From Chondrilla cf. caribensis (lineage: Eukaryota; Porifera; Demospongiae; Chondrillida; Chondrillidae), in the NCBI GenBank assembly GCA_964020155.1, contig OZ026549.1:2594633-2658632 (forward strand): a stretch of 64,000 nucleotides of DNA, given 5' to 3'. The position numbers and the translations under genes were made by a program. Positions 6,405-63,490 of the stretch are shown here, one piece after another; within the stretch, counting starts at the first letter, position 1; the number at the start of each line of letters is the position of its first letter. The notes beneath the pieces were generated by a model. The model did not search any database and was not told the origin of the DNA. It saw only the letters and a program-made list of their open reading frames with translations.

Positions 6405-8154
6405 GCGCACGCATGCACACACACACATGCACAAACACACCATCACAATATAAATCACACAAATAATGTCACAATGATTACTTCATAAGAGAAAGGCCTT
6501 GACTCCATAATAATATATAAAATCTGTACACATACATGTATGTATTATACACATATAATTATTTTTGCTTTCTATGAATTCAGAACCATCTGCTCCAAGG
6601 AATCCCTGCATATTAGGAGAGAGTAGGGATGGAATTGAACTCAACTGGATACCACCACAGGAGCCCAACGGAGATGTCTACTATCTCATTGATGATGGGA
6701 ATAGAACAGTGAATACTTCAAGTGGGTCTACTTACTTCAATTTAACAGGACTACAGAGAGGAGTGACGTACAACATCACAGTGGTGGCAGTGAACTCAGC
6801 TGGAAGGAGTGATACTGGACCAGTTCTTCATTACAAACGTAATGTACAAAGTAAGTATTTGACAATATGTGCTACTTGAATTGTCAGTTGTCATGGTATA
6901 AAGTTACTTAATAGCATATAGATCATTGTCAAGCAACAATTCATGCACAGTATATTGTAGTACTTACATAATTGAATTGCAAATAGTCCTTAATGAAATT
7001 AGCATTCGATATGTTGCAATGTGCAGGCATGACCTACTAGACAGTCCCAATTGGTGTGATGTCATTTACATATTATGTACACATATATGTGCATATATGT
7101 GTACATGTATGCATGTGAGTGCAATAGGTCTTCATTCACATTAGTTTCAATTGTAATTGTATTCACACAGTATCCACTCCTCCATCTACTCAGGATAACC
7201 CTTCTGGTGAGTCTTTTCAGAACATTTATTGTCATATGTATGCACATCCTTAATTATATCATTCTATTGTATAATACATAATATATAGTAAAACCCTTGA
7301 TCATGAAAAAACAATTACTGCTTTCTTCCTTGAATATAGTAAATGTCATTGGAGCTATCGCAGTCCTACTGGTATTAGTGACTATCATAGTTGTCATAAT
7401 AGTGATAGTGATCATCTGCATAATCAGGCACAACAGAAGAAAAGGAGTATCAGAAGGCAATGGAGAAGCTGACAATACAGACCATTACTACAGTGTAGCC
7501 ACTGAAAATGCAGTACCAAAACCGTCTAGAATGCAAGGAGATAACAAGAATGACATGATTGTGTATGACCAAGTTGAGGGTGAAAGCCTGAACGATACTG
7601 AAACTTATGAAGATCCTGATGCTGGGGGCAAAGTACACAACAAGACATCTGGAAATGGCAAGCAAAATGCAAATGTCCCACCAAAATATTCTAAACTACA
7701 GCAGAATATACCCCAAGAACCAACTCAGAGGGAGAATGTCCCATCTGAGGGACATTATGATGTAGCTGATAGCAGACAATACCGAGAGAAATATGACATG
7801 ATCGGCTCAGGAATGTACGTTAATTCAGCTGCAGCAAAAAAAGAAAGTGAAAATGTACCAATAACAAAACCAAACACTAAACCATCAAAAAGCAAGCATC
7901 CCAAGGATATTAATGACGAAATGCCCAAGAATGGGAACGATCCTTCCGAGCTTAACACCCAACCAAATAAAGCAAGGAAATATAATGAAGAATTGTACGT
8001 TAATCATGATCAAGTTGATCCAGATGAATTGTATACGCAACCTGACAAGAAAAAGAAGATAAAAAAACCACCACCATATGCATCTGGACGTAAAAGTGAT
8101 GATCCAGAGGCACTATATACTGCAGTTGATAAAGTTAAGAAAAGGAAAAACTAA
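4372..8154 (+). CDS. R1: Ig/FN3 single-pass receptor, class A (ITIM-type) tail; signal exon not in window
   Basis: Exons: Ig 4372-4689, two-Cys domain 4785-5093, FN3-I 5205-5495 (or 5501), FN3-II 6584-6850, linker 7171-7206, TM plus tail 7340-8154. All junctions are GT/AG and phase 1. The Ig exon has LVCRV, YYWTC, CPDGPC and GTYTCEV. FN3-II shows IELNWIPP and YNITVVAVNSAG. The linker encodes ISTPPSTQDNPS. The TM segment begins VIGAIAVLLVLV and is followed by RHNRRK. The 240-residue tail has an ITIM-type IVYDQV plus ETYEDP, KYSKL, HYDVA, KYDMI, MYVNS, LYTQP and LYTAV as potential SH2 sites. No signal-peptide exon like those of R2 to R6 is visible upstream. By analogy with R2, whose first intron also holds a gypsy element, it probably lies left of the window. 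Inferred role: cell-surface recognition with inhibitory or adaptor signalling. Confidence 0.85.
6112..6428. repeat. (CA)n microsatellite in R1 intron
   Basis: About 300 bp of CA dinucleotides with CTATCA, CGTACA and CCATCA interruptions, in the intron between FN3-I and FN3-II. R3 has a CA tract in the same intron and R6 only a remnant (about 61680). It opens spurious His-Thr and Cys-Val frames on both strands. Confidence 0.95.
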
Positions 8155-8222
8155 CATAATTATTATATTCAATTGTGTTCCATGCTATTACTTCATTCAC
8201 GCGTGTAATGATACAACTATGT

Positions 8223-8228
8223 AATAAA
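8223..8228 (+). other. Probable polyadenylation signal of R1
   Basis: AATAAA about 70 bp after the R1 stop codon, in a context (CTATGTAATAAATGTTA) that is conserved after the R6 stop codon. Confidence 0.6.
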
Positions 8229-11740: not shown

Positions 11741-11818
<78 letters not shown>

Positions 11819-13563: not shown

Positions 13564-13839
13564 ATGGAGAACATTGGAAAAGTCTATTTGATGAGTATTC
13601 TACTCTGTATCATTTCTTCACCTACCTTTTCAGGTGAGTTTGAGTTTCTTGTCAAATATCAACACTAACAGTTTGAGGTACTGTTCAGGATGGACGGCGA
13701 TACATTTAAGCACATGGGACTATTGGTCTACTGTTGGCATTATTTTTTTACTATTGTGACAGTCAATCATAACCGCCCAAAGTTTGAAAACAGTAAACCG
13801 ATTACCAAACACTACGACTACGTTCTCGGACGTTTTGCT

Positions 13840-15035: not shown

Positions 15036-15232
15036 TGTAATATATCGCTCGAAACGAGTTCACTTCACTGTTCAAGTCTCAATAATAATTCACACGTGTA
15101 CAACAAAGAACCATTGTTACAGGAATAGTAACACCGTAAGAGATAACATTGAACACAACCATAATAGTACAGATCTATCTCTAGTAACAATCATTAACTA
15201 GCAATGTTTATAATAACTACCAGTATGCCACA
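15036..15232 (-). repeat. 3' LTR of the R2-intron gypsy element
   Basis: Runs TGTAATATAT to GTATGCCACA in plus orientation, 197 bp, with the TG...CA ends typical of LTRs. In element orientation it is preceded by the purine run AAAAGGGGAGA (15233-15243). Confidence 0.92.
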
Positions 15233-17100: not shown

Positions 17101-17103
17101 AAA

Positions 17104-19065: not shown

Positions 19066-19081
19066 CCCACTTCTGACACCA
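19064..19081 (-). other. Primer-binding site of the gypsy element
   Basis: In element orientation the 18 bases TGGTGTCAGAAGTGGGAT directly follow the 5' LTR. They match the complement of the 3' end of animal tRNA-Leu (CAG/CAA type) with one mismatch as I recall that tRNA, so tRNA-Leu is the likely primer. Confidence 0.75.
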
Positions 19082-19278
19082 TGTACTATATCGCTCGAAA
19101 CGAGTTCACTTCACTGTTCAAGTCTCAATAATAATTCACACGTGTACAACAAAGAACCATTGTTACAGGAATAGTAACACCGTAAGAGATAACATTGAAC
19201 ACAACCATAATAGTACAGATCTATCTCTAGTAACAATCATTAACTAGCAATGTTTATAATAACTACCAGTATGCCACA
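19082..19278 (-). repeat. 5' LTR of the R2-intron gypsy element
   Basis: 197 bp, matching the other LTR at all but one position by eye; followed on the plus strand by the target duplicate TGATA at 19279-19283. Confidence 0.92.
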
Positions 19279-19283
19279 TGATA

Positions 19284-19990: not shown

Positions 19991-21364
19991 ACATGCAACT
20001 AGGACTATGCTGCACCTATTATGTAACCATGTATGCATGAAAATGTAGTATTCACTCTTTGTAATGTACAATTTTCCCTAGGCTCCACTGAGGTTACGGT
20101 GGTGATTGATGGCTACACAGTGGGCTCTACTCAGTCCTCACCAGCTTCACTACCACTATGAACAGCTCTTGTGTTGGTGTGTAGAGTCAGTGGAATACCA
20201 CAGAGACAGATCAAATATAGCTGGACATGTCCAGATGGTCCATGCGGACTTCCAGTATATGTGGGGAGAAAGGTTGTTAACAGCAATGTCCTAGCAGTCA
20301 ATATAACTTCTAACAGTGATGCAGGAACATATACCTGTGGTGTATCAAGAGATGAAGCAGATGGGGGATACAGCCAAAATTATATCCTCAATGTTTCAGG
20401 TCAATACACACAATGCATAAACACATGTAAAGATATACGTATGCACATGCATGTCAATAACATGTTTGTTGAAATGTATAATCTTATTATTTATCGTTAT
20501 AGGAGGACATGTTATCCACAGTTATGGGAGGCTTGTCCACCATCATAAAATAATCACTAGAGGAGATCAGCTTCTACCACCTGGTAATGAAACAGCCCCT
20601 GGAAGAATGGACTGTATAGGAACTGCACCAGAAACTGCTCGTTTTATATTTACTGGTCCCAAACCCAACAATTTTGTATCTGAAAGTAATGATGATGATG
20701 ATCAAATGGATACTGTATTCTTCAATCGATCTCACCTGACAATAAACACAGAGGGTATCTGTCAGGGAGCAAATACATATTTTTTTCTCTATTTATTACC
20801 AGGTAATACCTACTACCAATACTAGGTATAACTTACAATACGCAAATTCAACAATTGCAATGACAACATCAAGTGATATTTATTCTGATGCTTTCTTACT
20901 GTTTTATCACTCCCGGACAGGTACATTGACCAATGTCACTGTCATGATGGCTGTGCCAAGCACCACTGATGTAAAGATATTCCTCAATGATATTCCCTCA
21001 GATATTTATAGAATCATTGTAGGATATGAACGTCGTGACCTTGGAGTGACACTGCAGGGAGAGTATGCAAATATTGTCAGAAATACAGAGCACACATTCT
21101 CATCACTAGTCCCAGGTGCTAGGTACACAGTAGTAGTGCTGGGACTGACTGCAGCTGCAGGTCAAAGGAGTCAGCATGTCACAAGAAGAGATGTCAAAAC
21201 TATAGAAACACGTGAGGGCTATAGTAAATTAATAATTACATACTACTTATTTTAAAGTAAATATTCTATCTATTCTAAATAATATTATGGCATGTTCTAT
21301 GCTATAGCTAATCTTTTGAAATGAAACAATTATTCCAATGCTAATATGAATTCCATTGATTTAG

Positions 21365-21460
21365 AACCATGAATTCCAAGGCATCCCCATATAATCAGAG
21401 TGAATAGGAATGGAATAGAAAAAAAAAAATGGATACCTCCCATGGAACCCAATTGATAAT
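21365..21460 (+). pseudogene. Vestigial truncated FN3-II exon in R2
   Basis: After an acceptor-like GATTTAG, the sequence AACCATGAATTCCAAGGCAT aligns with the start of the FN3-II exon in R5 (48615). It breaks off at CCCAATTGATAA and carries an A-run and stop codons. From the break the sequence continues as the intron that precedes the intact FN3-II exon of R1 and R6. R4 has the same relic with the same break at 39158-39250. Confidence 0.7.
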
Positions 21461-21953
21461 AGAAAAGCCTTAACTCCATATATGTATAATAATATACATA
21501 CATGTGTATGTGCATATATTAATTTATTGCTTTCTATGGATTCAGAACCATCTGCTCCAAGGTATCCCTGTATAATTGGAGATGATACAGATGGAATTGA
21601 ACTAAACTGGATACCTCCACTGGAACCCAACGGAGATGTCTACTATCTCATTGAATATAATGATGGAAATAAAACTGCTTCAGTAAATACCTCTAGTGAG
21701 TCTACTTACTTCAATTTAACAGGACTACAGAGAGGAGTGACCTACAACATCACAGTGGTGGCAGTGAACTCAGCAGGAAGGAATGATACTGGACCAGTTC
21801 TGAATTACACACATAAGCCACAGAGTAAGTAGCTAAAGTAAGAGTGACCACTATTAGTAATATGTAAGCAAATTACTCCATACGTATTTTTACACAGGAT
21901 TATTCAACAGTATATGTGTGACAGTGCATACATGGGTGTGTGCACAAGTGCAT

Positions 21954-22056: not shown

Positions 22057-22900
22057 GCGTGTGCCGACTAGTGCATGTGTATTAGTACCTATTTCAAAGA
22101 TGTACAATCTGACGTAGCAACATGCTCCACTTGCCTTCTGCAGTTAACACCTCGACACAAACATCTCCTACCCCTTCACAAAAATCTCCTACTCCATCAC
22201 AAATATGTCCAACCCTGTCACAAAACTCTCCTACTGCAGTGATAATAGCTGTAGCTGTAGTGATAATCATGATCCTACTGGTCATTATTACAATACTGAG
22301 TGTTTTGCTGATATTGAAGAGGAAGAAACATCCACCTACAGTGCAGAGTGACAAGGTAAACATGTCAGAGATTTATGATGGAGTGGATGATATAGTGAAG
22401 ACCAATCAACACTATCAAGAATTGGACGTCAGAAAGAAGGATGATGATATAACGACCAGTACAGACTATCAAGAATTGAATGTCAGAAAGGTAGATCCCC
22501 TGGATCATAAGGTGATGGCCATTAAAGGTAATCCTGGATTGAATGCAAGGGAAAGGGACGATGATGTTATTCGTGAAGAAGACTATGAAGAATTAGACAT
22601 CGAAAAGGTTGACGAAGCCACCCAATATGCGTCATTGAAGTGATAGCTTATGAGAGGGTCATCCAGGGCATAGAAGCAGACATCATTATATAGTATTATA
22701 TGCATACATTTCCTTTGTGTACTGTAGTATGTACTGTAACACTTATATATACACAGTATGCTACATAACAGATAAATTGTGGAGTACATTAGTAAAGTAT
22801 CAAGTATATTATTATGGACATTGTATCAATATAGTCACTCCTGGGTGATTGCAATAATATTATCTCATTGGAGATGAAAGTTCAGATTGAATAGCGGTCA

Positions 22901-27888: not shown

Positions 27889-30042
27889 ATGAGCTTCATC
27901 AAAAGAATCTTTTTGATAAGTTCTGTACTCTGTTTAACAACTACAAGTACCTTTTCAGGTGAGTTCGACTGTCCATACGATTGAACCCAAATTACGGCGG
28001 GATATTTGTTCAGGTCAGACCACATTTACTCCATTAGGCATAGTTCATTTCATTCTCATCTGTCAATATTTTGGCATTATTTCGCGTGATTACTATCACA
28101 AGCTTAATGTGATAAGTACGTAAATACAAGGACATACGACTTCTTACTAGATTTATGGTCTAAGCATACACACGTATATAGACAGTGTCCTTATTCGTAC
28201 GGACCAAGACGATCCTTTCACTTACCTACGCGTAAACAGATGTGCCACGTACGGTGACCGTCTCTTTATAGGTTTTTATGAAATCGAAAGTTGATTTTGT
28301 TCCACCATACCAGAGATACTCAAAGACGTGCTTCGTGTATAAAATCCGGTGCATTACTTAGTGAATAGGATATTTTATATTGACAATACGTTCAGTATGA
28401 TAGTAAAAATTGCTGACGCAGAGCGTGAGTTATCCAAGTGGTAGCGTGGTACCGTAGCCGTGTATTTTAAACAAACAGATTCCATGATGATTAATAACAA
28501 TAATAGATTAGACCAACGCCGCTGAAGTATAAAGTTTAACTTCAATTTAACTGAATTCCTCAATGACTTCCTTCAGTTCTGGTTAGCCAACATTGTATAT
28601 TTCAACTCCTAGGTTCCCCAGTGATTACGGTGGTGATTGATGGTTACACAGTTGACTCCACTCAGTCCTCACCAGCTTCACTACCACTAGGAACAGCTCT
28701 TGTGTTGGTGTGTAGAGTCAGTGGAATACCACAGAGACAGATCAAATATAGCTGGACATGTCCAGATGGTCCATGTGAACGTCCAGCATATGTGGGGAGA
28801 AAGGTTGTTAACAGCAATATTCTAGCAGTCAATATAACTTCTAATAGTGATGGAGGAACATATATCTGTGGTGTATCAAGAGATGAAGCAGATGGCAGAT
28901 ACAGCCAATATTATATCCTCAATGTTTCAGGTCAATACACACAATGCATAAGCACACATGAAGATATATGCACATGTTTGTCAAAAACATGTTTGTTGAA
29001 ATAAATAATCTTATTATCGTTATAGGAGGACATGTTATCCACAGTTATGGGAGGCTTGTCCACGGTCATAGTATAATCACTAGAGGAGATCAGCTTCTAC
29101 CACCTGGTAATGAAACAGCCCCTGGAAGAATGGACTGCATAATAACTGCACCAGAAACTGCTCGTTTCATATTCACCAATCCCAAACCACCCAACAACTT
29201 TGTGTCTCAAATTGATAAGGATGATGATCAAATGGATACTTTATTCTTCAACCGATCTCACTTGTCAATAAACGCAGAGGGTTTCTGTCAGGGAGCAAAT
29301 CATACACGTGATACATATTTTTTTCTATATTTATTACCAGGTAATATCTACTACTAATACTAGGTATACCTTACAATATGCAAACATTCAACCATTGCAA
29401 TTAGAACATCAAGTAATATTAATTCTGATGCTTTATTAGTGTTATATCACTCCCTGACAGGTACATTATCCGATGTCACTATCATGAGGGCTGTGCCAAG
29501 CACCACTGATGTAAGAATAGTCCTCAATGATATTCCCTCTGATATTCATAGAACCCTTATAGGATATGAACGCCATGACTTTGGAGTGACACTGCAGGGA
29601 GAGTATGTAAATATTTTCAGAAGTACAGAGTGTACATTCTCATCGCTAGTCCCAGGTGCTAGGTACACAGTAGTAGTGCAGGGACTGGCTGAAAAAGCAG
29701 GTCTATGGAGTCAGCATGTCACAAGAAGAGATGTCAAAACTGAAGAGATAGGTCAGGGTAATATCCCATTTTACTTGTCAATAAGCATATTATATCTATT
29801 TGGTGCATAAAAAGTCTAATTTGGACTGAGTTACAATTTTTATGTGTATAGAGTTGTTTGGGAAGAGGGAAGGGCAATTAATTTTCTTCCAACATCAATT
29901 TATTGGGAATTAAATTTTGTTCTGAGCTTCTCTTTCATATGCCCCTGTAACCCCCCTCCCCCCACATACGCACACCATAAGAAAGTATAACTACAATTTG
30001 CAATAAAAAGGCACACACACATGCACGCACACACACAAACAT

Positions 30043-30115
<73 letters not shown>

Positions 30116-31114
30116 ATCACAATATAAATCACACAAATATAACAGTGATTACTTAATAAGAGATGACTTTACTCATAATTATTGCTTTCTATGAATTCAG
30201 GACCATCTGCTCCAAGGTATCCCTGTATAATAGGAGAGAGTAGGGGTGGAATTGAACTCAACTGGATACCACCACTGGAGCCCAATGGAGATGTCTACTA
30301 TCTCATTAGTGATGGAAATAGTACAGTCTATGCAGCCAGTGAGTCTACTTACTTCAATTTAACAGGACTACAGAGAGGAGTGACCTACAACATCACAGTG
30401 GTGGCAGTGAACTCAGCTGGAAGGAGTGATACTGGACCAGTTCTGAACTACAAACATAACCCACAGAGTGAGTAGCTAATGTAAAAATGACCGGTTGTAG
30501 TAAAGTTGTAGTCGACTTATTATTCATTTTACACAATTATATAACAGCATTATGTACAAGAGTACTTCCACGGTTGTTTGCACACGTGCATATGTGTATG
30601 TGTATGCATTTCCATAATTAAAGGATGTACAACCTGCATAGTGCAGCAACATATTCCAATTTTTACTACAGGTAACACTCCATCACAAAAATATCCTACC
30701 CTGTCACAAGAATGTCCTACTGCAGTGATCATAGCTGTAGCTGTAGTGATCATCACGATACTACTGGTCATTATTACAATACTGAGTGTTTTGCTGGTAC
30801 TGAAGAGGAAGAAACAACCACCCACAGTGCAGTGTGACCAGGTAAACATGCCAGAGATTTATGAAGTAGTGGATGACACTGACTATCAAGAATTGGATGC
30901 CAGAAAGATGGATGATGATGTGATGACCAACAAAGACTATCAAAAATTGAATGTCAGAAAAGTAGATCCCCTGCATAATGAGGTGATGACCATAAAAGGC
31001 AATCTTGGATTGGATGCCAGCAAAAAGGATGATGATGTGATTTGCGGTGAAGATTATGATGAATTAGATGCTGAAAAGATGGACAAGACCCCCCAGTATG
31101 CATCATTGAGGTGA
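27889..31114 (+). CDS. R3: Ig/FN3 single-pass receptor, class B (ITAM-type) tail
   Basis: Exons: signal 27889-27958, Ig 28613-28930, two-Cys domain 29026-29340, FN3-I 29461-29751 (or 29757), FN3-II 30201-30467, stalk/TM/tail 30672-31114; about 567 residues. The signal peptide (MSFIKRIFLISSVLCLTTTS) differs from the MENI type of the other genes and intron 1 is short (654 bp). The Ig domain has LVCRV, YSWTC, CPDGPC and YICGV. FN3-II is the short 89-codon form also found in R1. The stalk has only two SQ units. The tail has EIYEVV, TDYQEL, DYQKL and the terminal YDEL-x10-YASL, fitting the ITAM spacing. All exons open with canonical splice sites. Role inferred: activating-type recognition receptor. 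Confidence 0.88.
30011..30114. repeat. (CA)n microsatellite in R3 intron
   Basis: CA repeats between FN3-I and FN3-II exons, same intron as the R1 tract. Confidence 0.95.
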
Positions 31115-36949: not shown

Positions 36950-39900
36950 ATGGAGAACATTGGAAAAGTCTATTTGATGAGTATTCTACTCTGTATCATT
37001 TCTTCACCTGCCCATTCAGGTGAGTTCAAGTTTCTTGTCAGATATCAATATTTTAACAGTTTGAGGTACTGTGGGACTATTGCAATAGTGTTGGTATTAC
37101 TTTATACTATTGTTTAGCAATCATAATCGCCTAAAGTTTGAAAACAGTAAACCAGTAAGGTGGAAAATCGGAATGTTCGGAATTAGCTAACGACTGTTTG
37201 AAATTACCCCCGCCAACCTTAAACTATACGTAGGCAACGACACTCATATTCCAGTACGAGATAATGCAGTACACAGGTACAGACAGAGTTCATCTTCACG
37301 TATGCCGCAAGAGTTACACCTTCACTCACCTACATGTACTGGATAGAGTGGCCGTCACCTTATTACCGATTATTACGATGAAATCGAACGGCGATTTCGC
37401 TGCTCTCGGACAGTGGGCTCACCACAACATTACACGTGCTACATCTATGTCTTGTGCATGTGACGTCATGCAAGTTCAAAGTGCAATTGGTACTGGAAAC
37501 CATTCAAATGCTGTACTGAAGGAAGTTAGTTAGTTAATTTCACACTCGATAATAGAACGTACGGGCGTAATCAATATTATTACAGGGTTTGAAGTTGCAG
37601 CCTACGCATCTAATTGGTGTGGCAATTAAATTTCATTTTTCCATTTACTTTATTTTAATATATGGCAGTATTTTTTGGACTATAATGGACTTGCCATGTC
37701 CATTTGGTTGCCAAACAATTGAATCATTCCCCAAAATAGATTCATGATAGCAGAGATCTGTTCTGCAGGAAACACATTGAGATGTCTGGACTATGGTTTA
37801 CAAGTCAAATCCAATGAAAATAATAAATATGCTTTAATCAATCAATTTAATGCTTTATTCACTGCTGGTAATGTACAATTCCCCCCTAGGCTCCCCCAAG
37901 GTAACTGTGGTGATTGATGGCTACACAGTTGACTCTACTCGGTCCTCACCAGCTACACTTCCACTAGGAACAGCTCTTGTGTTGGTGTGTAGAGTCAGTG
38001 GAATACCACAGAGACAGATAAAATATAGCTGGATGTGCCCAGATGGTCCATGTGAACGTCCAGGATATGTGGGGAGAAAGGTTGTTAAGGGCAATATTCT
38101 AGCAGTCAATATAACTTCCGACAGCGATGGAGGAACGTACACCTGTGAAGTATCAAGAGATGAGGCAGATGGAGGATACAGCCAAAGTTACATTCTCAGT
38201 GTTTCAGGTCAATAATGCATTCACACAGATACGTGCACACATCAAAAACATTTTTATTCTTATAAAAATGTATGAAATGAGTAATCTTTTTATCAATATA
38301 GGAGGACATGTCATCCACAGTTATGGGAGGCTTGTCCACGGGGAACACGTAATCACTAGAGGAGATCATCTTCTACCACCCGGTGATGTAACAGGGCCTG
38401 GAAGAATGGACTGCATCAGAACTGCACCAGAATTTGAAACTGCTCGCTTTGAATTTGACAGTCTGAAACCACCAAACAATTTAGTAAATCAAAGTGATGA
38501 AGATGGGGACCAAATGGATACTTTATTCTTCAATCGATCATACTTATTAATGAACAATTTCAAAAATGTAGAAGGTTTCTGTAGGGGAGCATATTATCGT
38601 GGCAATTTCTTTTATCTCTTTTTATCACCAGGTAAATTCTTACAATATTCACAAATTCAACCACCACTTGCCTATTAATTACAATGTGCATTGATGCTAA
38701 TGTTTTACTATTGTTTTATCACTCCCTGGCAGGTACATTACCCAATGTTACCATTGTGAGTATTGAGCCGAGCACCACTGGCACGAGTATAGAAATAGAC
38801 ATGGCTGTTCCCGTAGGTATTCGTAGGACCATTGTAGGATATGAACGTCATGACCTAGGAGTGACACTGCAGGGAGAGTATACAAATATTGACTGGCATA
38901 CACGGTATACATTCTCATCACTAGTCCCAGGTGCTAGGTACACAGTAGTAGTGCAGGGACTGAGTGGACTTGCAGGTGATAGGAGTCAGCATGTCACAAG
39001 AGAGGATGTCAAAACTACAGAAACAGGTGTGGGCTATAGCAATTCAATAATTACATACTACTTATATATTCTGGATATTTTGGCATGTTTCATGCTATCA
39101 CTACTCTTTTGAAAAGAAACAATTTTTATAATGCTGATATGAAGTCTATCGATTTAGAACCATCAATTCCAAGGCATCCCCATAATAATTAGAGTGAATA
39201 GGAATGGAATAGAAATAAACTGGATACCTACACTGGACCCAATTGATAAGAGAAATCCTTAACTTCATTTATGTATAATAAATTTAATATTATGACATTG
39301 TACATATAGTTATTTCTTTCTACGGCTTCAGAACCATCGGCTCCAAGACATCCCTATATAATTAGGGATGATACAGATGGAATTGAACTAAACTGGATGC
39401 CTCCACTGGAACCCAACGGAGATGTCTACTATCTCATTGAATATAATGATGGAAATGGAACTGTTTCGGTAAATACCTCCAGTGGGTCTACTTACCTCAA
39501 TTTAGCAGGACTACAGAGAGGAGTGACCTACAACATCACAGTGGTGGCAGTGAACTCAGCTGGAAGAAGTGATACTGGATCAGTTCTGAATTACACATAT
39601 AGCCCACAGAGTAAGTAGCTAACATTACAATGAGCAGTTTTAGCAAAGATGTGAGCAAAATTAATATATTATACGTATTGTTACACGGGATTATTAAACA
39701 GTATAATGTGTGACAGTGCATCCATGGGTATGTGCACAAGTGCATCATGTGTGTATGTATGTACTTGTGTGTGTGTTTGTGTATGTGTGTGTATGTGTGT
39801 GTGGGGGGGGGGAGTAGTGGGTGTGCTGAATTCTGCATTTGTATTACACATTTGAAGGATGTACAATTTGATGTAGAAACATGCTCTACTTGCTTGCTGC

Positions 39901-40327
39901 AGTTAACACCCTATCACAAAAATATCACATCCCATCACAAAAATGTCCAACTCTGTCACAGAGCTCTCCTACTGGAGTGATAATAGTTGTAGCTGTAGTG
40001 ATCATCGTGATACTACTGGTCATTATTACAATACTGAGTGTTTTGCTGATACTGAAAAGAAAGAAACAACCACCTACAGTGCAGCGTGACCAGGAAAACA
40101 TGTCAGAGATTTATGAAGTAGTGGATGATATAGTGAAGACCCATCGAGACTATCAAGAAATGAATCTCAGCAGGATGGATCCCTTGGATGATGAGTTAAA
40201 GTCCATAAAAGGTAATCTTGGATTGGATGCAAGGAAAAGGGTTGATGATGTTACTCGTGAAGAACACTATGAAGGATTAGACACTGACAAGGTTGACAAG
40301 ACCACCCAATATGCATCATTGAAGTGA
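36950..40327 (+). CDS. R4: Ig/FN3 single-pass receptor, class B (ITAM-type) tail
   Basis: Exons: signal 36950-37019, Ig 37890-38207, two-Cys domain 38302-38631, FN3-I 38733-39026, FN3-II 39332-39610, stalk/TM/tail 39903-40327; 571 residues. Signal peptide MENIGKVYLMSILLC. Ig landmarks LVCRV, YSWMC, CPDGPC and YTCEV. The two-Cys exon is the long 110-codon form shared almost verbatim with R5 (VEGFCRGAYYRGNFFYLFL), and homology runs through the following intron into FN3-I, suggesting recent conversion or duplication. Three SQ stalk units. Tail: EIYEVV, DYQEM, terminal YEGL-x10-YASL. A truncated extra FN3-II relic lies in the intron at 39158-39250. All exons open. Confidence 0.9.
37650..37830. 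repeat. Segment D fragment in R4 intron 1
   Basis: Short copy of the duplicated segment with CCATGTCCATTTGGTTG and ATAGCAGAGATCTGTTCTGC, as at 3210-3300, 47160-47260 and 58770-58850. Confidence 0.55.
39158..39250 (+). pseudogene. Vestigial truncated FN3-II exon in R4
   Basis: Aligned to the R5 FN3-II exon start (AACCATCAATTCCAAGGCAT) and broken at the same CCCAATTGATAAG junction as the relic in R2, with a stop codon (ATTAGAG) and no donor site. Confidence 0.7.
39748..39810. repeat. (GT)n tract in the R4 last intron
   Basis: Imperfect GT/GTAT repeats ending in a G-run, matching in position the GT tracts of R2 and R5. Confidence 0.85.
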
Positions 40328-45294: not shown

Positions 45295-48200
45295 ATGGAG
45301 AACATTCGAAAATTCTATTTGATGAGTATTCTACTCTGTATCATTTTTCCAGCTGCCTTTTCAGGTGAGTTTCTTGTCAAATATCAACACTTTAACAGTT
45401 TGAGGTACATTTTAGGAAGGACGGTAATAACACATGACACTATTGCTATACTTTTAGCATTACTTTTTACTATTGTTTATCAATCATAACAGTAAACCGA
45501 TTAGCAAACACGACGACTATGTTCCCTAATGTTTTATTGAGTTACACAAATTTGAATAACCGGTATAGGGTTACTGTATTGTGTCCCATTGATCTTTCAC
45601 AGTTCCTATACCAATGCTGTTTCACGGGGCCGTCAGTAATAATGAATCTAACCTGACTTGTACTGACACCCATCCCCTTACGCTTTCTTGAGTCATACAA
45701 AATTGCAATAAACAAGCGGTTACTGTATCGTGTGGTATTGATTTTTACAGTTCTTATACGAATACCATTTCACGGGCCATCGGTAAAATTGAATGTAACC
45801 TGATTTGTGTAATATCCATATGTTTGATGCACAGACCTAACAAAATTCATAGTTTAGCAATAGTTTAATAATACAACAGTAAAAAATAATAGTACAGTAA
45901 TAATAGTAATAAAAATGATAATAGTAACAGTAATAATACCATAGTTTATAGTTTGGTAGTTTACAAAGTTTAATTCCACGATAATTCGACCAAAGCACAA
46001 TGTGCTAAGGAAAACTCGCCTAATGTCGAGCAGTGCTAATTCTCGAAAGTTGGTCTCTCGCCGTATAATTTTCAAGAAACTGTGCCACGGATTTTTATAG
46101 TGGATATTCTCAATCCTTACACACATTATTGACCGGATAAGGTGGAAAATCGACATGTTCGAAATTAACGACTGTTTGAAATTACCACCGCCTTCCTTAT
46201 ACTATACGTAGGCAACGACACTCATATTCCAGTACGAGATAATGCAGTACACAGGTACAGACAGAGTTTATCTTTACGTATGCCGTAAGAGTTGCCCCCT
46301 CACTCACCTACATGTACTGGATAGAGTGGCCGTCGCCTTATTACCGATTGTTATGATGAAATCGAACGGCGATTTCGCTGCGTCTCGTCTACAAGACATA
46401 GGGCTCACCACAACATTACACGTGCTACATCATCGTCATGTGCACGTTATACGTCATGCAAGTTCAAAGTGCAATTGGTACTGGAAACCATTCAAATGCT
46501 GTACTGTAGGAAGATATTTCACACTCGATAATAGAACGTACGGGCGTAATCAATTATACTGAGCGGATTAGCGAGGTTAATTTTTTCCCAAGCCTACTTT
46601 CGTCCAAACCAATACACTCAAATATAACATAATATCACAGTGGAAAATAGCTAATCAAAACTGTATGATGTGAGCTCATTTTAAAATACAATAAAAGAAT
46701 TATGAGTTACATACATGCAGATGATATAAAAAACATAAAAATAGTTAGTAATAATAATGATAATAATAACAATAACAATAATACTAATTGTGATATTAAA
46801 ACTACATGATCAAGGATTAAGGACATTCAGTTAAACAGTACTTCTAGAGGAGATATTCCCCTCTCTAACAATGAGATTAACAGGGTCCTCGAGGTTGATT
46901 GCGGTTCCTCTTGATCTAGTACCCCGTAAACACATAATTGCAGATCGGATTAGGGAATAGCTGATTGTGCATCTTATCTAACTCATAACTTTGCTGTAAG
47001 GTTGATCTCTCTTGTCTGCTATCATGCACGCAAGTCTCTTGTACATTAGCTCTGCTGTTTTGCCCATTCCTCCAGTTGTGGATAAAACGATTGGGGTGAG
47101 CGAGGTTAATTGATCGTTATGTATAAATATCCATTCGTTAGCGGGGTATGAAGTTGCAGCATGCCATGCCATGTCCATTTGGTTGCCAAACAATTGAAAC
47201 CTTCCCTAAAAATAGGTTCATGATAACAGAGATCTGTTCTGTAGAAAACACATTGAGATGTCTGGACTTTGGTTTACAAGTCAAATGTAATGAAAATGAT
47301 AATGAATATGCAATCTATTTAATGCTTGTGTACATTTTTCCTTCTAGGCTCCCCTAAGGTAACTGTGGTGATTGATGGCTACACAGTTAACTCGACTGAG
47401 TCCTCACCAGCTTCACTACCACTAGGAACAGCTCTTGTTTTGGTGTGTAGAGTTAGTGGCCTACCACAGAGACAGATCAAATATAAATGGACATGTCCTG
47501 ATGGTCCATGTGAATGTCCAGGATATGCGGGGAGAAAAGTTGTTAATGGCTATATTTTAGCAGTCAATATAACTTCTAACAGTGATGGAGGAAAGTATAC
47601 CTGTGACATATCAAGAGAGGAGGCAGATGGGAGATACAGCCAAAATTATTTCCTCAATGTTTTAGGTCAATACACACAACAATGCATTCACACTCATAAA
47701 GATATATGCACATGTCAAAAACACTTTTATACTTAGTGTATGAAATGAATAATCTTATTATCGTTATAGGAGGACATGTCATCCACAGTTATGGGAGGCT
47801 TGTCCAACGGGAACATGTAATCACTAGCGGAGATCAGCTTCTACCACCTGGTGATGTAACAGGGCCTGGAAGAATGGACTGCATCAGAACTGCAACAGAA
47901 TTAGAAACTGCCCGCTTTGAATTTGACAGTCTGAAACCACCAAACAATTTAGTAAATCAAAGTGATGAGGATGGGGACCAAATGGATACTTTATTCTTCA
48001 ATCGATCATACTTATTAATGAACAATTTCAAAAATGTAGAAGGTTTCTGTAGGGGAGCATATTATCGCGGCAATTTCTTTTATCTCTTCTTATCACCAGG
48101 TAAATTCTTACAATATTCACAAATTCAACCACTACTTGCCTATTAATTACAACATGCAGTGATGCTAATGTTTTATTACTGTTTTATCACTCCCTGACAG

Positions 48201-48996
48201 GTACACTACCCAATGTCACTATCATGAGGGCTGAGCCGAGCACCACTGGCACAAGTATAGAAATAGACGTTGCTATTCCCGCAGGTATTCGTAGGACCAT
48301 TGTAGGATATGAACGTCATGACCTAGGAGTGACACTGCAGGGAGAGTATACAAATATTTTCAAACGTACAGAGCATACATTCTCTTCACTAGTCCCAGGT
48401 GCTAGGTACACAGTAGTAGTGCAGGGAGTGAGTGGACTTGCAGGTGATAGGAGTCAGCATGTCACAAGAGAGGATGTCAAAACTACAGAAACAGGTGTGG
48501 GCTATAGTAAATTGATAATAACACACTATTTTTTTAAGTATCACATGTTTTCATGCTATCACTTTTGAAATGAAACAATAATTATTCCAATGCAAATTAA
48601 TTCCATTGATTTAGAACCATCAGTTCCAAGGGGTCCTCATATAATTGGAGTGAATAGGAATGGAATTGAACTCAACTGGATACCTCCACTGGACCCCAAT
48701 GGAGATGTCTACTATCTCATTGAACATAATGATGGAAATAGAACTGTTTCAGTAAATACCTCCAGTGAGTCTACTTATTACCATTTAACAGGACTACAGA
48801 GAGGAGTGACCTACAACATCACAGTGGTGGCAGTGAACTCAGCAGGAAGGAGTGATACTGGACCAGTTCTTAATTACACACATAACCCACAGAGTGAGTA
48901 ACTATTATAGCAGTGACCAGTTTTAGCACAGATGTAGACAAATTAATATGACACAATAAACAGGATTATTATACAGTATACATGTGACAATGTGTG

Positions 48997-49047: not shown

Positions 49048-49070
49048 GTGTGTGTGTGTGTGTGTGTGTG

Positions 49071-49123
<53 letters not shown>

Positions 49124-49676
49124 CTGAATTGTGCGTTTGTATTTGTACATATTTGAAGGATGTACAATCTGATGTAGAAACATACTCCACTTGCTTGCTG
49201 CAGTTAACAACCCATCACAAAAATCTCCTATCTCATCGCAAAAATATAACACCCCATCACAAACATCTCCGACCTCATCACAAAAGTCTCTTACTCCTTC
49301 ACAAAAGTGTCCAACACTGTCACAAAACTCTCCTACTGAAGTGATCATTGTTGTAGCTGTAGTGATCATCGTGATACTACTGGTCATTTTTACAATACTG
49401 AGTGTTTTGCTGATACTGAAGAGGAAGAAACAACCACCCACAGTGCAGTGTGACAAGGAAAACATGTCACACATTTATGATGTAGTGGATGATATAGTGA
49501 AGACCAATCAAGACTATCAAGAAAGGAATCTCAGCAAGGTGGAGGTAAAGTCCATAAAAGGTAATCTTGGATTGGATGCAAAGAAAAGGGTTGATGACAT
49601 TATTCGCAAAGAACACTATGAAGGATTAGACACTGCCAAGGTTGACAGGACCACCCAATATGCATCATTGAAGTGA
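45295..49676 (+). CDS. R5: Ig/FN3 single-pass receptor, class B (ITAM-type) tail
   Basis: Exons: signal 45295-45364, Ig 47348-47665, two-Cys domain 47770-48099, FN3-I 48201-48494, FN3-II 48615-48893, stalk/TM/tail 49204-49676; 587 residues. Layout: signal 1-23, Ig 24-129, two-Cys 130-239, FN3-I 240-337, FN3-II 338-430, stalk to about 476, TM about 477-502, tail to 587. Ig landmarks LVCRV, YKWTC, CPDGPC and KYTCDI. Its FN3-II exon is the parental form of the truncated relics in R2 and R4 and follows FN3-I by only 120 bp. The stalk has six SQ units, the most in the array. The tail carries HIYDVV, DYQER and terminal YEGL-x10-YASL. All exons open. Confidence 0.9.
45560..46560. repeat. Conserved intron 1 block (R5 copy) with internal duplication
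   Basis: Contains the elements shared with R2 and R6 intron 1. The part TATAGGGTTACTGTAT through TTTCACGGGGCCGTCAGTAA (about 45565-45650) recurs diverged at about 45718-45810, so this copy has a tandem duplication of about 155 bp. An AT-rich (TAATAG)n-like insertion lies at about 45860-45950. Confidence 0.5.
46720..47120 (-). mobile_element. Retroelement C-terminal fragment (LINE-like) in R5 intron 1
   Basis: Minus-strand frame reads LTPIVLSTTGGMGKTAELMY, KRLACMIADKRDQPY, a stop, then SYSLIRSAIMCLRGTRSRG. The order matches the plus-strand fragment at 23261. A tail with ATT/GTT repeats (46740-46790) follows in element orientation. Confidence 0.6.
48991..49123. repeat. (GT)n microsatellite in the R5 last intron
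   Basis: GT repeats with GTTG interruptions before the stalk/TM exon. Confidence 0.95.
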
Positions 49677-57001: not shown

Positions 57002-57116
57002 AGCTATTCATTACTCAGGTGAAGGAATATTCCAGTGAATACACACCTGGTACTTTGCTGAACAGTGTGAGTAAATATTCAGCTTTTGTGCCAACTGAGG
57101 TATACACAGAAGGGAG
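57002..57116 (+). promoter_or_regulatory. Conserved proximal upstream block of R6
   Basis: Same block as before R2, R4 and R5; it shares CAGCTTTTGTGCCAACTGAG with R5 more closely than with R2 and R4. Confidence 0.4.
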
Positions 57117-60100
57117 ATGGAGAACATTGGAAAAGTCTACTTGATGAGTATTCTACTCTGTATCATTTCTTCAGCTGCCATTTCAGGTGATTTCAAGTTT
57201 CTTGTCAGAATTAATATCAACACTAACAGTTAGTCTAACAGTTTGAGGTACACAAAATAGCCGGTATAGGGTTACTGTATTGTGTGGCATTGATCTTTTC
57301 ACAGTTCCTATACAATTGCCGTCTCACGGGGCCGTCGGTAAAATTGGATGTAACCAGATTAGTGTGACATTCATACGTTTGGTGTACAGACCAAACAAAA
57401 GTAATACAAGGAGAGTTTGATTCCACGATTATTCCATCATAGCGTCGTTAAGCTAAACGCGCCTTATTTCGAGCAATGCCTAATTCCCAACAGTTGGTCT
57501 CTCGCCGTATTATTTTCACACCAGGTATATGGCACAGCATTCTTTAGTCTACTCATTGACCGGATTAGGTGGAAAATCGGCATGTTCGGAATTAACGACT
57601 GTTTGAAATTACCACCGCCTTCCTAAAACTATACGTTTAGGCAATGACACTCATATTCCAGTACGAGATAAGCCAGTTCACAGGTACAAACAGAGTTCAT
57701 CTTTACGTATGCCGTAACAGTTGTCCCCTCACTCACCTACATAATATACAGCTGTACTGGGTACAGTGGCCGTCGTCTTATTATCGATTATTACGATGAA
57801 ATCGAAGGGCGATTTCGCTCCATCTCGTTTACACCATAGTGGTTTCCTCTATTGTCTATGGTTTCACCACATCACACCATCTATGATGACACGTGCTATA
57901 TCGATGTCATGTGCGCTTGACGTCCATGCAAGTTCAAAGTGCAATTCACACTCTATAATAGGACGTACGGGTGCTATCAATTACATTGTACAGTCTTGAC
58001 TGAGCTATCAGTAGCCTGTTCAAATATCCGTCATACACACTGGCTCAAAATCCTACAGTTTACAGCCAATCAGTTGCTCATTTTCCATCGTTTGGCTCGC
58101 GATGAGCTTTAATGGTTACCCAGACCACTACTACCATCATAACTGCATTTGTAGTCACAATCATCTTTCAATATATTCAAACTCACATTCTTGCCAGGTT
58201 TAAACAAACAAACATTATCCGTTTGTTTTGTTTTTACACCTGTGTCCGAGAGTTACATATGTGTATGTGATGTTTGAATAATAAAGCATTTCTCCTCCCT
58301 CTATGTATCAGGAAATAGTCTAGTTACAATAGCTAGACCATCCCTATCAGGTACCTGTGGTGGAGTGGGGAAGGGATGGTCTAGCAAACCAAATGATTGT
58401 TTCCCACCTAAACTTATACACATACAGGGTATGACTTTTGAGGAATTAATAGTTGAAAATGAATAATTATCAAAGTAGGAACAGGGCCGAGAGGCATCTA
58501 TATTATAGGTACATGTCAGTAAGTGCAAGAGGATAGTAAAAACTTGCGGAATTAATCTCATTTGTCTTATCAAAAGTTAAGCATAAATATCTCAAAGGAA
58601 GGTTTATCCCTAAAGGTTGATAAATTGCTGAGTGACTTCACTAAACTGCTCAATAGCCATGTTTGCTTGTCTGTTAACCACGACAGTGAAGACAACATGT
58701 GGATAGAAGTTTTGTACATTCTTGGTCTCCATTTTAATATTTGGCAGGACTGCTTTGATTATAATGGACATGCCATATCCATTTGGTTGGCAAACAATTA
58801 AATCATTCCCCAAAAATAGGTTCATGATAGCAGAGATCTGTTCTGCACAAAACACATAATGATTGAGATGTCTGCACTTTATTTTACATTAGGCATATAA
58901 AACCAGGCTGCCCATACTTTCACGTGTTACGTTTACTACACTACATTATTTTCCCATCTCTCCTTATGTTCATTTTTGACAAGATCCATAGATCATCATC
59001 ACAATAGGCTGCTCTTAGGGAAACCTGTAGGGATGACATTGATAAACAAATAGCAACTAATGGTATTACAGTATAATAATGATTAACAGTGGATATTGCA
59101 TTCTGAATGGCTGCAGTGGTCCTATGTATTGTACATAACACAAGATGTGGAGACACCAAGTATTAGTGCTATACATGACACAACCAAGTACATAGATGCC
59201 AATAAATCCTTACTGCAATTAGATATACAGTCACTTTACAGGCAGGAATTTGGATGTGTAATATCAATATTGATATTGGTGTATAACACAGCATGGTATG
59301 GAATGTAACAATATTATTACTAAGTCAAAATTAATAAGGATTCATATGTGGTAAGTGTAACAAACTGCATCTACCAAAGTCAAATCCAATGAAATCAAAA
59401 TTTAATGAACATGCTGTACTCAAACTATTGATGCTTAATTCACTGTTTGTAATGTACATTATCCCCTAGGTTCCCCTAAGGTAACTGTGGTGATTGATGG
59501 CTACAAGGTTGACACTACTCAGTTCTCACCGGCTACACTACCACTAGGAACAGCTCTTGTGTTGGTGTGTAGAGTCAGTGGAATACCACAGAGACAGATC
59601 AAATATAGCTGGACATGTCCAGATGGTCCATGTGAACGACCAGGATATGTGGGGAGAAAGGTTGTTAACGGCAGTATTCTAGCAGTCAATATAACTTCTG
59701 TCAGTGATGGAGGAACGTACACCTGTGAAGTATCAAGAGATGAAGCAGATAGGGGATACAGCCAAAATTATACCCTCAAAGTTTCAGGTCAATACATACA
59801 GCAAACATGCGCCGAAAATAAGTGGTGAAATTCTGTTTTCACAGTCCTCAGGTGTTTACAGTTTCACTATGATTTTATGTACTAGACTGTTTTGGAAATT
59901 AACAGGAAACACACAATTCTTGGTATGCCAAAACACGAATTTGGAGAGTTAGTCATCTCCCCAAATTTGGGACATACACAAAACAAGCAACATTCACGTA
60001 AGATCAGAAGACTCTATGGGAATACACATGTTACATACCCAAGCCAACTTTGATCATAAGTAGGTTGTTATTCAGATGCTTAGCAACTGGAATTAGTTCA

Positions 60101-63100
60101 AAACATGTCTCAACTTGATTATCACCTCCCAAATTTCCACTGTTTCAAGGGAGAATTGGCATGAACATGCATGTTTACTATTAAAACCTAATAAAAATGA
60201 TGAAACAGCTGAATATGAAGGTTGGGGCTTAATCAGAATTTAACCATCTAATTCAGAACACGTTAACAATGCATTCATGCACAAAGATATTATATGCACT
60301 TGTCCAAAACAATTTTACTTATACAAGTGTATGAATTGAAAAATCTTATTATCATTATAGGAGGACATGTTATCCACAGTTATGGGAGGCTTGTTCACTC
60401 TCAATATGTAATCACTAGAGGAGATCAGCTTCTACCACCTGTTAACGGAACAGGGCCTGGAAGAATGGACTGCATAAGAACTGCACCAGAAACTGCTCGT
60501 TTTATATTTAAAGGTGGCAAAGGTGGCAAACCACCCAACAACAATTTAGTAAATCAAAGCGTTGAGGATGATCATCAAATGGCTACTTTATTCTTCAACC
60601 AAGCTTACTTGTCAATGAACAATTTCACTGCAGAGTATTCCTGTCAGGATGACACATATATTCTTTTCTATTTATCACCAGGTGAAAACTACTACTAATA
60701 CTAGGTATTAACTACAATACACAAGCATTCAACAATAATTGCAATTACAGTATCAAGTGGTAATATTTCTAATGCTTTATTATTGTTTTATCCCTCCCTG
60801 ACAGGTACATTATCCACTGTCACTATCATGAGGGCTGAGCCAAGCACCACTGATGTAAGAATAACTCTCAAAGAGATTCCCTCAGATATTCATAGAACCA
60901 TTGTAGGATATGAACGTCATGACCTTGGAGTGACACTGCAGGGAGAGTATGCAAATATTAAGAGACGTACAGAGCGTACATTCTCATCACTAGTCCCAGG
61001 TGCTAGGTACACAGTAGTAGTACAGGGACTGTCTCCATCTGCGAATGGAGCTAATAGAAGTCAGCATGTCACAAGGAGAGATTTCAAAACCAAAGTGAAA
61101 GGTCAGGGTAATATCACATTTTACTTGAGCATATTCATCTCATACTAGGTGGTGCTAAAGAGTCTAATGTGGATTAAGTTACGATTTAGAGTTCTTTGGA
61201 ACGAGGCCATGGCACCACAAAACCATTTGTTACTTTCAAATATCAACTTATTGAGTATTTGTGCTGGACTTCTCTTCATATGCCCCTTTAGCCCCCACAC
61301 ACCATAACAAAGTATAACTGAAATATAGAATAAAAATTATAATTACATGCATAAACTTCCGATTATAATTGCACATTAATTATACATACATATCTATAGT
61401 TGTATTATATTAAATTTTACATATGTACAAAATAGCACAACATTCACCTAACCATCTGTATTATGTACACAAAGATCTTTTTTGGGAGGAGGTACGTAAG
61501 GGCATATTTGCCTTCTCTTCAGAGAAATTCCCCTCCCCCTTCTGGAGATTCTATATTTACCCCCCTTGAGATACCTCATACAATTATACAGAGCACATCA
61601 CATATCTGTAGGTTTTAGGAAACAGATTTCCTTGGATGAATATATCCAATAATACTCACATACTACAAATGTGTGCACAAATACACGTACACACACCATC
61701 GCAATATAAATCATACAAATAATATCAGTGATTACTTGATTAGAGAAATGCCTTAACTCTATATAATATAAAATATTTCTACATAATATACATGCATCTG
61801 TTGCTTTCTATGAATTCAGAACCATCTGCTCCAAGACATCCCTGTATAATTGGAGATAATACAGATAGAATCGAACTAAACTGGATACCTCCACTGGAAC
61901 CCAACGGAGATGTCTACTATCTCATTGAATATAATGATGGAAATAGAAATGTTTCAGTAAATACCTCCAGTGAGTCTACTTACTTCAATTTAACAGGACT
62001 ACAGAGAGGAGTGACCTACAACATCACATTGGTGGCAGTGAACTCAGCTGGAAGGAGTGATACTGGACCAGTTCTGAATTACACACATAACCCACAGAGT
62101 AAGTATCTATCAATGTGTGATGACTTTTTGTCATGGTATAAAGTTATCCATAGCATATTATAGATCATTGTCAAACAACAGCTGATGCACTGTCTAGTCC
62201 TTTAAATAATTGATGGAAATAGAAAATAGTCCTTAATTTCATAATCAATGTTAAGCAATTAATATGTACATATACGTGTGACGTCGTTTACATAATATTG
62301 TGTGCATAAATGAGCATACATGTGTACATGTATGCATGTGAGTGAAATAGGTCTTCATTGACATTAGTTTTGATTTTAATTGCATTCACACAGTATCCAC
62401 TCCTCCACCTACTCAGAACATCACCTCTGGTGAGTCTTTTCATGTGTACATGTATGCATGTGAGTGCAATTTGTCTTCATTGACATTAGTTATGATTTTA
62501 ATTGGATTCACACAGTATCCACTCCCTTACCTACTCAGAATAACTCCTCTAATGAGTCATTCAGACCTTTTACTTGTCCTATATGTATGCACATCTTCAA
62601 AAATATCATTCTATTGTATACATAATAACATATATAATATATATTAAACCCTCATGATAACATATTTACTGCTATCTTCCTTGAATTTAGCAAATGTAAC
62701 GGCTGGTGTCATTGGAGCCATTGCAGCACTACTGATAGTAGTGTCTATCATAGCCGTTATAATAGTGATAGTGATCGTCTGCATAATTATTCGCAACAGA
62801 AGAAAAGGAGTACCGGAAGGCAATGGAAAAGCCGACAATGCAGACCATTACTACAGTGTAGCCACTGAAAATGCACAACCTCCTAGAATCCAAGGAGGTA
62901 ACAAGAATAACATAATTATGTATGACCAAGTTAAGGGTGGGGGCCTGAATGGTAGTGAAACTTATGAAGATCCTGATGCTGGGGTCAAAGTTACAAATGC
63001 CAAGACATCTGGAAATGACAAACAGAATACAAATACCCCAGGAAAATATTCTAAACTCCAGCAAAATATACCCCAAGAACAACCTCAGCAGGAGAGTATC

Positions 63101-63490
63101 CCACCTGAGGGTCATTATGATGTAGCCGATAGCAGACCATACCAAGACAAATATGACATGATTGGCTCAGGAATGTACATCAATTCAGCTGCTGCAAAAA
63201 AAGAAAGTGAAGATGTACCCATAACTCAACCAAACACTAAACGATCAAAAAGTAAGCATCCCGAGGATATTAATGATGGGCAGGATCCTTCCGAGCTTTA
63301 CACCCAACCAAATAAAGCAAGAAAACATAATGAAAAATTGTACGCTAATCATGATCAAGTAGATCCAGAGGAATTGTACACACAACCTGCTAAGAAAAAG
63401 AAGATAAAAAAACCACCGCCATATGTATCTACACGCCAAAATGATGATCCAGAGGCACTCTATACAGCAGTTGATAAAAACAAGAAATGA
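57117..63490 (+). CDS. R6: Ig/FN3 single-pass receptor, class A (ITIM-type) tail
   Basis: Exons: signal 57117-57186 (donor GTGATT), Ig 59470-59787, two-Cys domain 60361-60681, FN3-I 60805-61101 (or 61107), FN3-II 61820-62098, linker 62394-62429, TM plus tail 62691-63490; about 706 residues. Signal peptide MENIGKVYLMSILLC. Ig landmarks LVCRV, YSWTC, CPDGPC and YTCEV. The linker encodes ISTPPPTQNITS; a second linker-exon copy at 62516-62551 has lost its donor. The TM segment (VIGAIAALLIVV) is followed by IRNRRKG. The tail, about 230 residues, has HYYSV, an ITIM-type IMYDQV, ETYEDP, KYSKL, HYDVA, KYDMI, MYINS (Grb2-type YxN), two LYTQP and LYTAV, in the same order as R1. Best complete class A gene in the window. 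Confidence 0.9.
57240..57980. repeat. Conserved intron 1 block (R6 copy)
   Basis: Same order of elements as at 13840-14830 in R2, without coding conservation. Confidence 0.5.
58310..58920. repeat. Duplicated segment D, copy 3 (R6 intron 1)
   Basis: Homologous to 2580-3360 and 19310-19800; uninterrupted by the gypsy and foldback insertions of the other two copies. Confidence 0.65.
62516..62551 (+). pseudogene. Second linker exon copy in R6 with a broken splice donor
   Basis: Repeats the 36-nt linker exon 122 bp downstream with its acceptor (CACACAG), but the donor reads A/ATGAGT instead of G/GTGAGT. The intron between the copies is also duplicated. It is probably not spliced in. Confidence 0.75.

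Follow-up and report, generated by a model that had tools for sequence, protein, structure and literature searches.

The window analysed here, a stretch of 64,000 nucleotides from the sponge Chondrilla cf. caribensis (C4:2594633-2658632, in a searched genome of 137 Mb on 37 contigs), contains six tandem receptor genes on the + strand, R1-R6, which were rebuilt by homology and splice sites (Table 1). Each gene consists, in this order, of exons for a signal peptide, an immunoglobulin (Ig) domain, a region named X2, two fibronectin type III domains (FN3-I and FN3-II) and a transmembrane (TM) segment with cytoplasmic tail, spliced in phase 1 from GT donors to AG acceptors. The ectodomains are shared among the genes while the tails differ: those of R2-R5 (class B) end in an immunoreceptor tyrosine-based activation motif (ITAM), and those of R1 and R6 (class A) contain a site resembling an immunoreceptor tyrosine-based inhibitory motif (ITIM). 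An earlier note on this DNA had described this arrangement as a paired ITAM/ITIM receptor cluster with two unrelated tail classes.

Signal-peptide exons were located for R2-R6; that of R1 lies outside the window, with a relative ~2.9 kb to the left of the window start. R1 and R3-R6 show open reading through all five exons. A Pfam scan recognised Ig_3 and fn3 domains, FN3-I alone scoring below the cut-off, and matched the novel domain X2 to no family. The hydrophobic TM stretch is free of charged residues in all of R1-R6, a Glu in R5 being situated at its outer edge. FN3-II is 267 nt (89 codons) in R1 and R3 versus 279 nt in R2 and R4-R6; the sharing of the short form by a class A and a class B gene, to which the earlier note had drawn attention, is real but not special to this pair, as three further genes outside the window (two A and one B) have it as well.

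Table 1. Exons and tail motifs of R1-R6, in window positions.
Feature	Position (strand)	Parts	Basis
R1 ectodomain	4372..6850 (+)	Ig 4372-4689, X2 4785-5093, FN3-I 5205-5501, FN3-II 6584-6850 (short)	Homology and GT-AG phase-1 splice sites
R1 TM + class A tail exon	7340..8154 (+)		Homologous to 20 other A tail exons
R1 ITIM-like IVYDQV	7558..7575 (+)		Position counted from translation
R2 signal-peptide exon MENIGKVYLMSILLCIISSPTFS	13564..13633 (+)
R2 ectodomain	20082..21824 (+)	Ig 20082-20399 (in-frame TGA), X2 20503-20802, FN3-I 20921-21211, FN3-II 21546-21824
R2 stalk + TM + class B tail exon	22144..22643 (+)
R2 ITAM YEEL-x10-YASL, final Lys included	22584..22640 (+)
R3 signal-peptide exon	27889..27958 (+)
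R3 ectodomain	28613..30467 (+)	Ig 28613-28930, X2 29026-29340, FN3-I 29461-29757, FN3-II 30201-30467 (short, 89 codons)
R3 stalk + TM + class B tail exon	30672..31114 (+)	ITAM YDEL-x10-YASL 31055-31111
R4 signal-peptide exon	36950..37019 (+)
R4 ectodomain	37890..39610 (+)	Ig 37890-38207, X2 38302-38631, FN3-I 38733-39026, FN3-II 39332-39610
R4 stalk + TM + class B tail exon	39903..40327 (+)	ITAM YEGL-x10-YASL 40268-40324
R5 signal-peptide exon	45295..45364 (+)
R5 ectodomain	47348..48893 (+)	Ig 47348-47665, X2 47770-48099, FN3-I 48201-48494, FN3-II 48615-48893
R5 stalk (21-bp repeats) + TM + class B tail exon	49204..49676 (+)	ITAM YEGL-x10-YASL 49617-49673
R6 signal-peptide exon	57117..57186 (+)
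R6 ectodomain	59470..62098 (+)	Ig 59470-59787, X2 60361-60681, FN3-I 60805-61107, FN3-II 61820-62098
R6 TM + class A tail exon	62691..63490 (+)	ITIM-like IMYDQV 62915-62932

When the genome was searched with A and B tails, as the earlier note had proposed, and the matches were sorted by position, 50 tail exons appeared at C4:2.49-3.24 Mb (~750 kb), all on one strand, so that the window holds six of about 50 genes. They comprise 21 A, 20 B and 9 exons of a further class, C, a count that excludes shorter fragments and includes some damaged copies (splits or deletions affect the A exons at 2489739, 2567433 and 3046175, and three stop codons interrupt the B exon at 2818481). Class C, found outside the window only, is a hybrid in which an A-type TM and HYYS-type start are followed by B-type YQEL...YEEL...YASL, showing that tails recombine. 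The same stretch contains 49 Ig exons, and the order of tail classes along it is indistinguishable from random, with 32 switches between neighbours against 31.6 expected. The family as a whole has at least 150 Ig exons (the best 150 of 221 candidates) and at least 150 X2 exons (the best 150 of 171), with further relatives at C4:0.32-0.85 Mb, C4:4.16-4.56 Mb and on contig C2.

For the ITAM the motif YxxL/I-x(6-12)-YxxL/I in the cytoplasmic tail was used. The class B ends are present in the DNA as previously read, with YEEL in R2, YDEL in R3 and YEGL in R4 and R5, each followed by x10-YASL, and are of the type YEELDTEKMDETTQYASL. Among the tails examined, a terminal pair with ITAM spacing is present in 14/15 of class B and 8/9 of class C (22/24 together) and in none of 12 of class A, while 0.4-3.4% of shuffled B and C tails contain such a pair by chance. 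The exceptions are one copy ending in YALK (L016) and one that departs after YEEL, where the fetched stretch stops (L044). Both ITAM tyrosines are kept in every B or C row with letters at these positions (24/24 and 23/23). Taken together, the tyrosine columns of B and C are more conserved than the other tail columns (0.949 vs 0.715, p 0.002), and the ratio of non-synonymous to synonymous substitution rates (dN/dS) is 0.05 at the former vs 0.52 at the latter; for the tails overall it is 0.45-0.49. The presence of an ITAM in the receptor itself, within a paired-type layout in a sponge, is at the level of sequence well supported.

In class A the ITIM consensus [I/V/L/S]xYxx[L/V/I] is matched by IVYDQV in R1 and IMYDQV in R6, and neither tail has the ITAM pair, both as the earlier note had stated. 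Among 13 A tails examined, ten match the consensus and 12 keep the tyrosine, the exceptions to the consensus being TVYGQV, IVCDKI and DVYDQV; a match arises by chance in 19-32% of shuffled A tails. The site is located beside a PPPY sequence, itself kept in 12 of 13 (PLPY in L035). The site is one of 14 columns in class A with a majority of tyrosine, most of which are in other contexts (YTQP, YVNS, YVNH, YDMI, YTAV). Two YTQP sites keep their tyrosine in 11/13 and 12/13 tails and a YVNS/YINS-type site in 13/13, while that in the ELYVNH context is kept in 8/13 only. The tyrosine columns of A are more conserved than the others (0.951 vs 0.888, p 0.03) and have a dN/dS of 0.13 vs 0.48. YxxP, YxNx and PPxY are signalling and docking motif types, and class A has the look of a long docking tail with many tyrosines, of a kind shared with the demosponge Halisarca (see below).

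The homology of ectodomain exons across tail classes, claimed previously for the window, was borne out when the exons of 17 tailed genes (7 A, 8 B and 2 C) from 255 kb of joined sequence were compared one by one. Ig exons are on average identical in DNA at 0.904 for A-A, 0.899 for A-B and 0.892 for B-B pairs. The nearest neighbour is of the same class in 4/17 genes for Ig, 5/17 for FN3-II, 8/17 for FN3-I and 11/17 for X2, with ~6 expected from the class numbers; at the DNA level the ectodomains are not cleanly separated according to their tails. A tree of the joined exons rejects the B genes as a single clade (approximately unbiased test, p 6e-5). A single locus thus combines near-identical ectodomains with more than one type of tail, as is characteristic of paired receptors.

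Comparing neighbouring sequence in two A-B pairs revealed where the shared part ends. An alignment of R1 (A) with R3 (B) that runs from the Ig exon across two introns and into the third, the one following FN3-I, has 86.7% identity in 1394 aligned positions; the last match between the two genes, spanning FN3-II (79%, partly CA repeats), stops 7 bp past the FN3-II donor. Around FN3-II, R6 (A) and R2 (B) share 90% identity up to 11 bp past the donor. Pairs of the same class, A-A (R1-R6) and B-B (R4-R5, R2-R3), are alignable through the tail exon and beyond. Because A-B homology stops 7-11 bp past the donor whereas A-A and B-B homology runs on, the tails look like cassettes, each made up of the last intron, the tail exon and what follows. 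A segment at C4:2544941-2546249 (L015:4941-6249) contains a B-tail end and, 0.6 kb on, a broken A-tail piece, with no ectodomain exon detected between them, and may be a relic of cassette exchange.

The middle exons evolve fast, with a dN/dS of 0.82 in X2 and 1.02 in FN3-I compared to 0.40 in Ig and 0.39 in FN3-II, and with 8 and 7 highly variable columns, respectively, vs 1 and 1 in the other two. Based on these two measures a ligand surface, if there is any, would more likely lie in X2/FN3-I than in the Ig domain.

The two tail types show a weak similarity close to the membrane. A profile comparison of A and B gave a probability of 77% for the TM and the residues that follow it, to which TM composition may contribute. 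An ungapped pattern, QPPxxQ....N....YDxV, links the membrane-proximal regions of both; its score was reached by 8/1000 shuffles of these regions, which were picked after seeing the result, and by 311/1000 shuffles of whole tails. This is suggestive only of A and B being perhaps not wholly unrelated; if the match is right, the ITIM-like tyrosine of A corresponds to the first tyrosine of B. Calling the two classes unrelated, as the earlier note did, perhaps goes too far in view of this weak similarity, and the hybrid class C has to be added to them.

A search with the R4 protein gave four proteins at E <= 1e-3 among 7996 candidates scored, the sole named one being A0AA96MNW2 of Halisarca dujardinii (P0004; 750 residues, 'Insulin-like protein receptor' in the source), which is 41% identical over 75% of R4 and has Ig and FN3 domains and an alignable X2 region. 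Its tail resembles the A tail (score 111, reached by 0/1000 shuffles; profile probability 93% over TM+HYYS) and shows no resemblance to the B tail, either by alignment, where 739/1000 shuffles reach the score, or by profile comparison. Since the A tail resembles the Halisarca tail and B does not, class A is, judging from this single deposited outside sequence, probably older than the ITAM end. The Halisarca tyrosine aligned with the ITIM-like tyrosine of A lies in TLYDEV, which does not fit the consensus, nor does the nearby DNYDTV; the one match in that tail, VLYAEV, is at a different place.

Candidate SH2 partners, on which the earlier note had made its reading depend, are found in the same genome. 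At C17:4.511-4.514 Mb an N-SH2 and a C-SH2 exon have Syk/ZAP-70 as their best solved relatives (E 1e-18 and 3e-29), the latter exon also matching the Syk linker preceding C-SH2, and both contain the SH2 arginine (LLRDS, FLVRE). The C-SH2 query hit this locus only, low-score matches aside, while the N-SH2 query matched other SH2 exons too, the nearest on C5 (51% over 47 residues). Downstream of the two exons, past the expected kinase position, RPTFAQLAERLREA has by eye the look of a kinase end and gave no Pfam match. The locus appears to be of the Syk-type tandem-SH2 kind, its kinase part being putative. Three open reading frames between the two exons had no Pfam match; in Shark, ankyrin repeats are situated between the SH2 domains (PMC10253181). 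Co-evolution of Syk and Zap70 has been described within planulozoans (PMC5978004), and a Syk-type gene outside this group would be of interest. In addition, judged by coordinates only, SHP-type SH2-SH2-PTP (protein tyrosine phosphatase) exon orders occur at C12:4.910-4.917 Mb and C12:4.672-4.681 Mb, the PTP search covering the best 150 of 290 candidates. Dense clusters of SH2 exons at C14:1.55-2.14 Mb and C15:4.25-4.39 Mb possibly represent expanded kinase or adaptor families, and large tyrosine-phosphatase exon clusters among the matches listed (C6:4.3-4.9 Mb, C18:3.1-3.9 Mb and on C17) likewise suggest expanded families.

Taking the evidence together, we consider it fairly probable that the array combines shared Ig/X2/FN3 ectodomains with interchangeable tails, in which the ITAM of B and C likely recruits a Syk-type protein and class A signals differently, possibly as a restraint. 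Under this proposal a ligand recognised by the fast-evolving X2/FN3-I region would cluster B and C receptors, leading to phosphorylation of the ITAM tyrosines, binding of Syk and ITAM-Syk signalling. Class A receptors would see the same or related ligands and draw other SH2 proteins, either an SHP-type phosphatase or adaptors, so that their engagement would shift the outcome and the cell would read the balance of A versus B and C. Recombination that swaps tails would then allow the same recognition surface to take on another meaning. A bolder version, which we put forward only tentatively, is a sponge paired-receptor complex of ~50 Ig/FN3 receptors, where recombination at the last intron redistributes ITAM, docking/ITIM-like and hybrid tails among diversifying ectodomains for self/non-self recognition, placing a Syk-based balance of activating and non-activating signals at the base of the animals. 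The proposed role in self/non-self recognition or allorecognition is a hypothesis from analogy, made because of the architecture and of parallels in Hydractinia and Botryllus (PMC12065747).

Several observations weigh against the favoured proposal. Inhibition by class A depends on one weak motif, and the A-like tail of Halisarca P0004, when scanned for an ITAM pair, had none. The nearest neighbour in X2 tracks tail class in 11/17 genes, and genes with the same class of tail tend to group together on the ectodomain tree, with 4 changes vs 7.2 in shuffled labels (as low in 3/200), pointing to few swaps; because the labels are clustered and the single B clade is nevertheless rejected, tail swaps occurred repeatedly, though not freely. 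Neither the joined-exon trees nor the dN/dS values take account of recombination, which can distort dN/dS, and the Ig exon set extends about five codons past the donor. The strong tyrosine values depend on class C, which has the B end, since for class B alone the tyrosine columns are only marginally more conserved (0.918 vs 0.812, p 0.07), with a dN/dS of 0.75 that is based on five columns in which few changes occurred. The spacer of x10 is wider than the classical x6-8. Finally, the similarity of the paralogous clusters (C4 0.33-0.44 and 4.16-4.59 Mb; C2) to the B tail is limited to its TM-proximal part (residues ~19-119), and the B-type ITAM end may for this reason be confined to one array.

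Of the claim of a paired ITAM/ITIM cluster, the shared ectodomains and the ITAM within the receptor stand, while an inhibitory role of class A is only a possibility. A true activating/inhibitory pair, where B signals via Syk and A ends the signal by recruiting an SHP-type phosphatase through I-x-Y-D-Q-V, would agree with the common ectodomains, with the consensus and tyrosine frequencies in A and with the two SH2-SH2-PTP exon orders, whose presence makes inhibition by class A possible. We nevertheless regard such a pair as rather unlikely, given a single site per tail that shuffled tails often match, the three copies without consensus, the two non-matching sites in Halisarca (though VLYAEV passes elsewhere) and the majority of conserved A tyrosines being of other types. 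That A and B alike serve as scaffolds for positive signalling or adhesion, A binding adaptors through its YxxP, YxNx and PPxY sites and B binding Syk with no antagonism between them, in an array for adhesion or sorting, is a possibility we hold with some doubt: three tail classes, a sharp cassette edge and fast middle domains look more like a recognition family than like housekeeping adhesion. The motifs could also be chance matches or relics in a decaying tandem array, as short motifs are easily found, several copies are fragments, R2 carries a TGA and a retroelement, and the tyrosine columns do not clearly stand out when B is taken by itself. This seems very improbable, however, as the ITAM is kept in nearly all B and C tails, the tails and in particular their tyrosines in A and in B with C show low dN/dS, and five of the six window genes are open throughout.

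The array with interchangeable tails that we favour can be compared to several known systems. The vertebrate paired receptors KIR, LILR and SIRP are clustered genes of the immunoglobulin superfamily with near-identical ectodomains, different signalling tails and recombination between members, and the sponge array is similar in all these respects. The activating vertebrate members mostly combine a charged TM residue with a separate ITAM adaptor, whereas the sponge receptors have the ITAM in their own chain and, in the window genes, no charge in the TM stretch; the human Fc-gamma-RIIA is also a single-chain Ig receptor with an ITAM in its own tail. The ectodomains of KIR, LILR and SIRP consist of Ig domains only, unlike the Ig-X2-FN3-FN3 order found here, which sets the sponge genes outside these families. 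Halisarca P0004 resembles the array in Ig/FN3 domains, X2 and tail, and differs from class B in its lack of an ITAM. In the oyster Crassostrea gigas, CgIgIT2 is a single-chain Ig receptor with an ITAM in its own tail, and no two-tail tandem array with shared ectodomains is described in the available part of PMC11999971. ITAM and ITIM motifs occur in the candidate allorecognition genes (alr) of the cnidarian Hydractinia, for which the part of PMC12065747 available describes no shared-ectodomain, cassette-tail design, the likeness being one of description only. The Botryllus fester co-receptors (FcoR) form a large one-locus family having ITIM or hemITAM tails with motifs swapped by splicing; they differ in an Ig-sushi-Ig-Ig ectodomain, in the hemITAM in place of a full ITAM and in being chordate (PMC12065747). 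According to the same part of that source, ITAM/ITIM use in allorecognition spans 'from cnidarians to mammals', and no sponge receptors are named there. If true, the present proposal would push this recognition logic to the earliest animal branches, and the array may be a very early form of paired receptors and would provide a defined locus at which to look for sponge allorecognition. An A tail older than the ITAM end would also open the origin of ITAM receptors to comparative study.

R2 is probably dead in this haplotype, as its Ig exon carries an in-frame TGA and its first intron a retroelement. The element is situated between the signal-peptide exon (13.6 kb) and the Ig exon (20.1 kb), at window 15217-19110 on the minus strand, with protease, reverse transcriptase, RNase H and integrase domains spread over two frames, and is presumably gypsy-type, from the domain order. 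Near R2, remnants of a second FN3-II exon (21367-21453) and of a B tail exon (24522-24686) are duplication leftovers, and the last intron of R6 contains two copies of a 122-bp tandem unit (window 62319-62558). An open frame resembling gag, whose PNMA match is too weak to pass the Pfam cut-off, lies on the minus strand at window 1609-2280. Within C4:2480001-2735000 two types of signal-peptide exon, R3-like and R4-like, are interleaved among the genes, and the signal-peptide exon is perhaps another exchangeable module.

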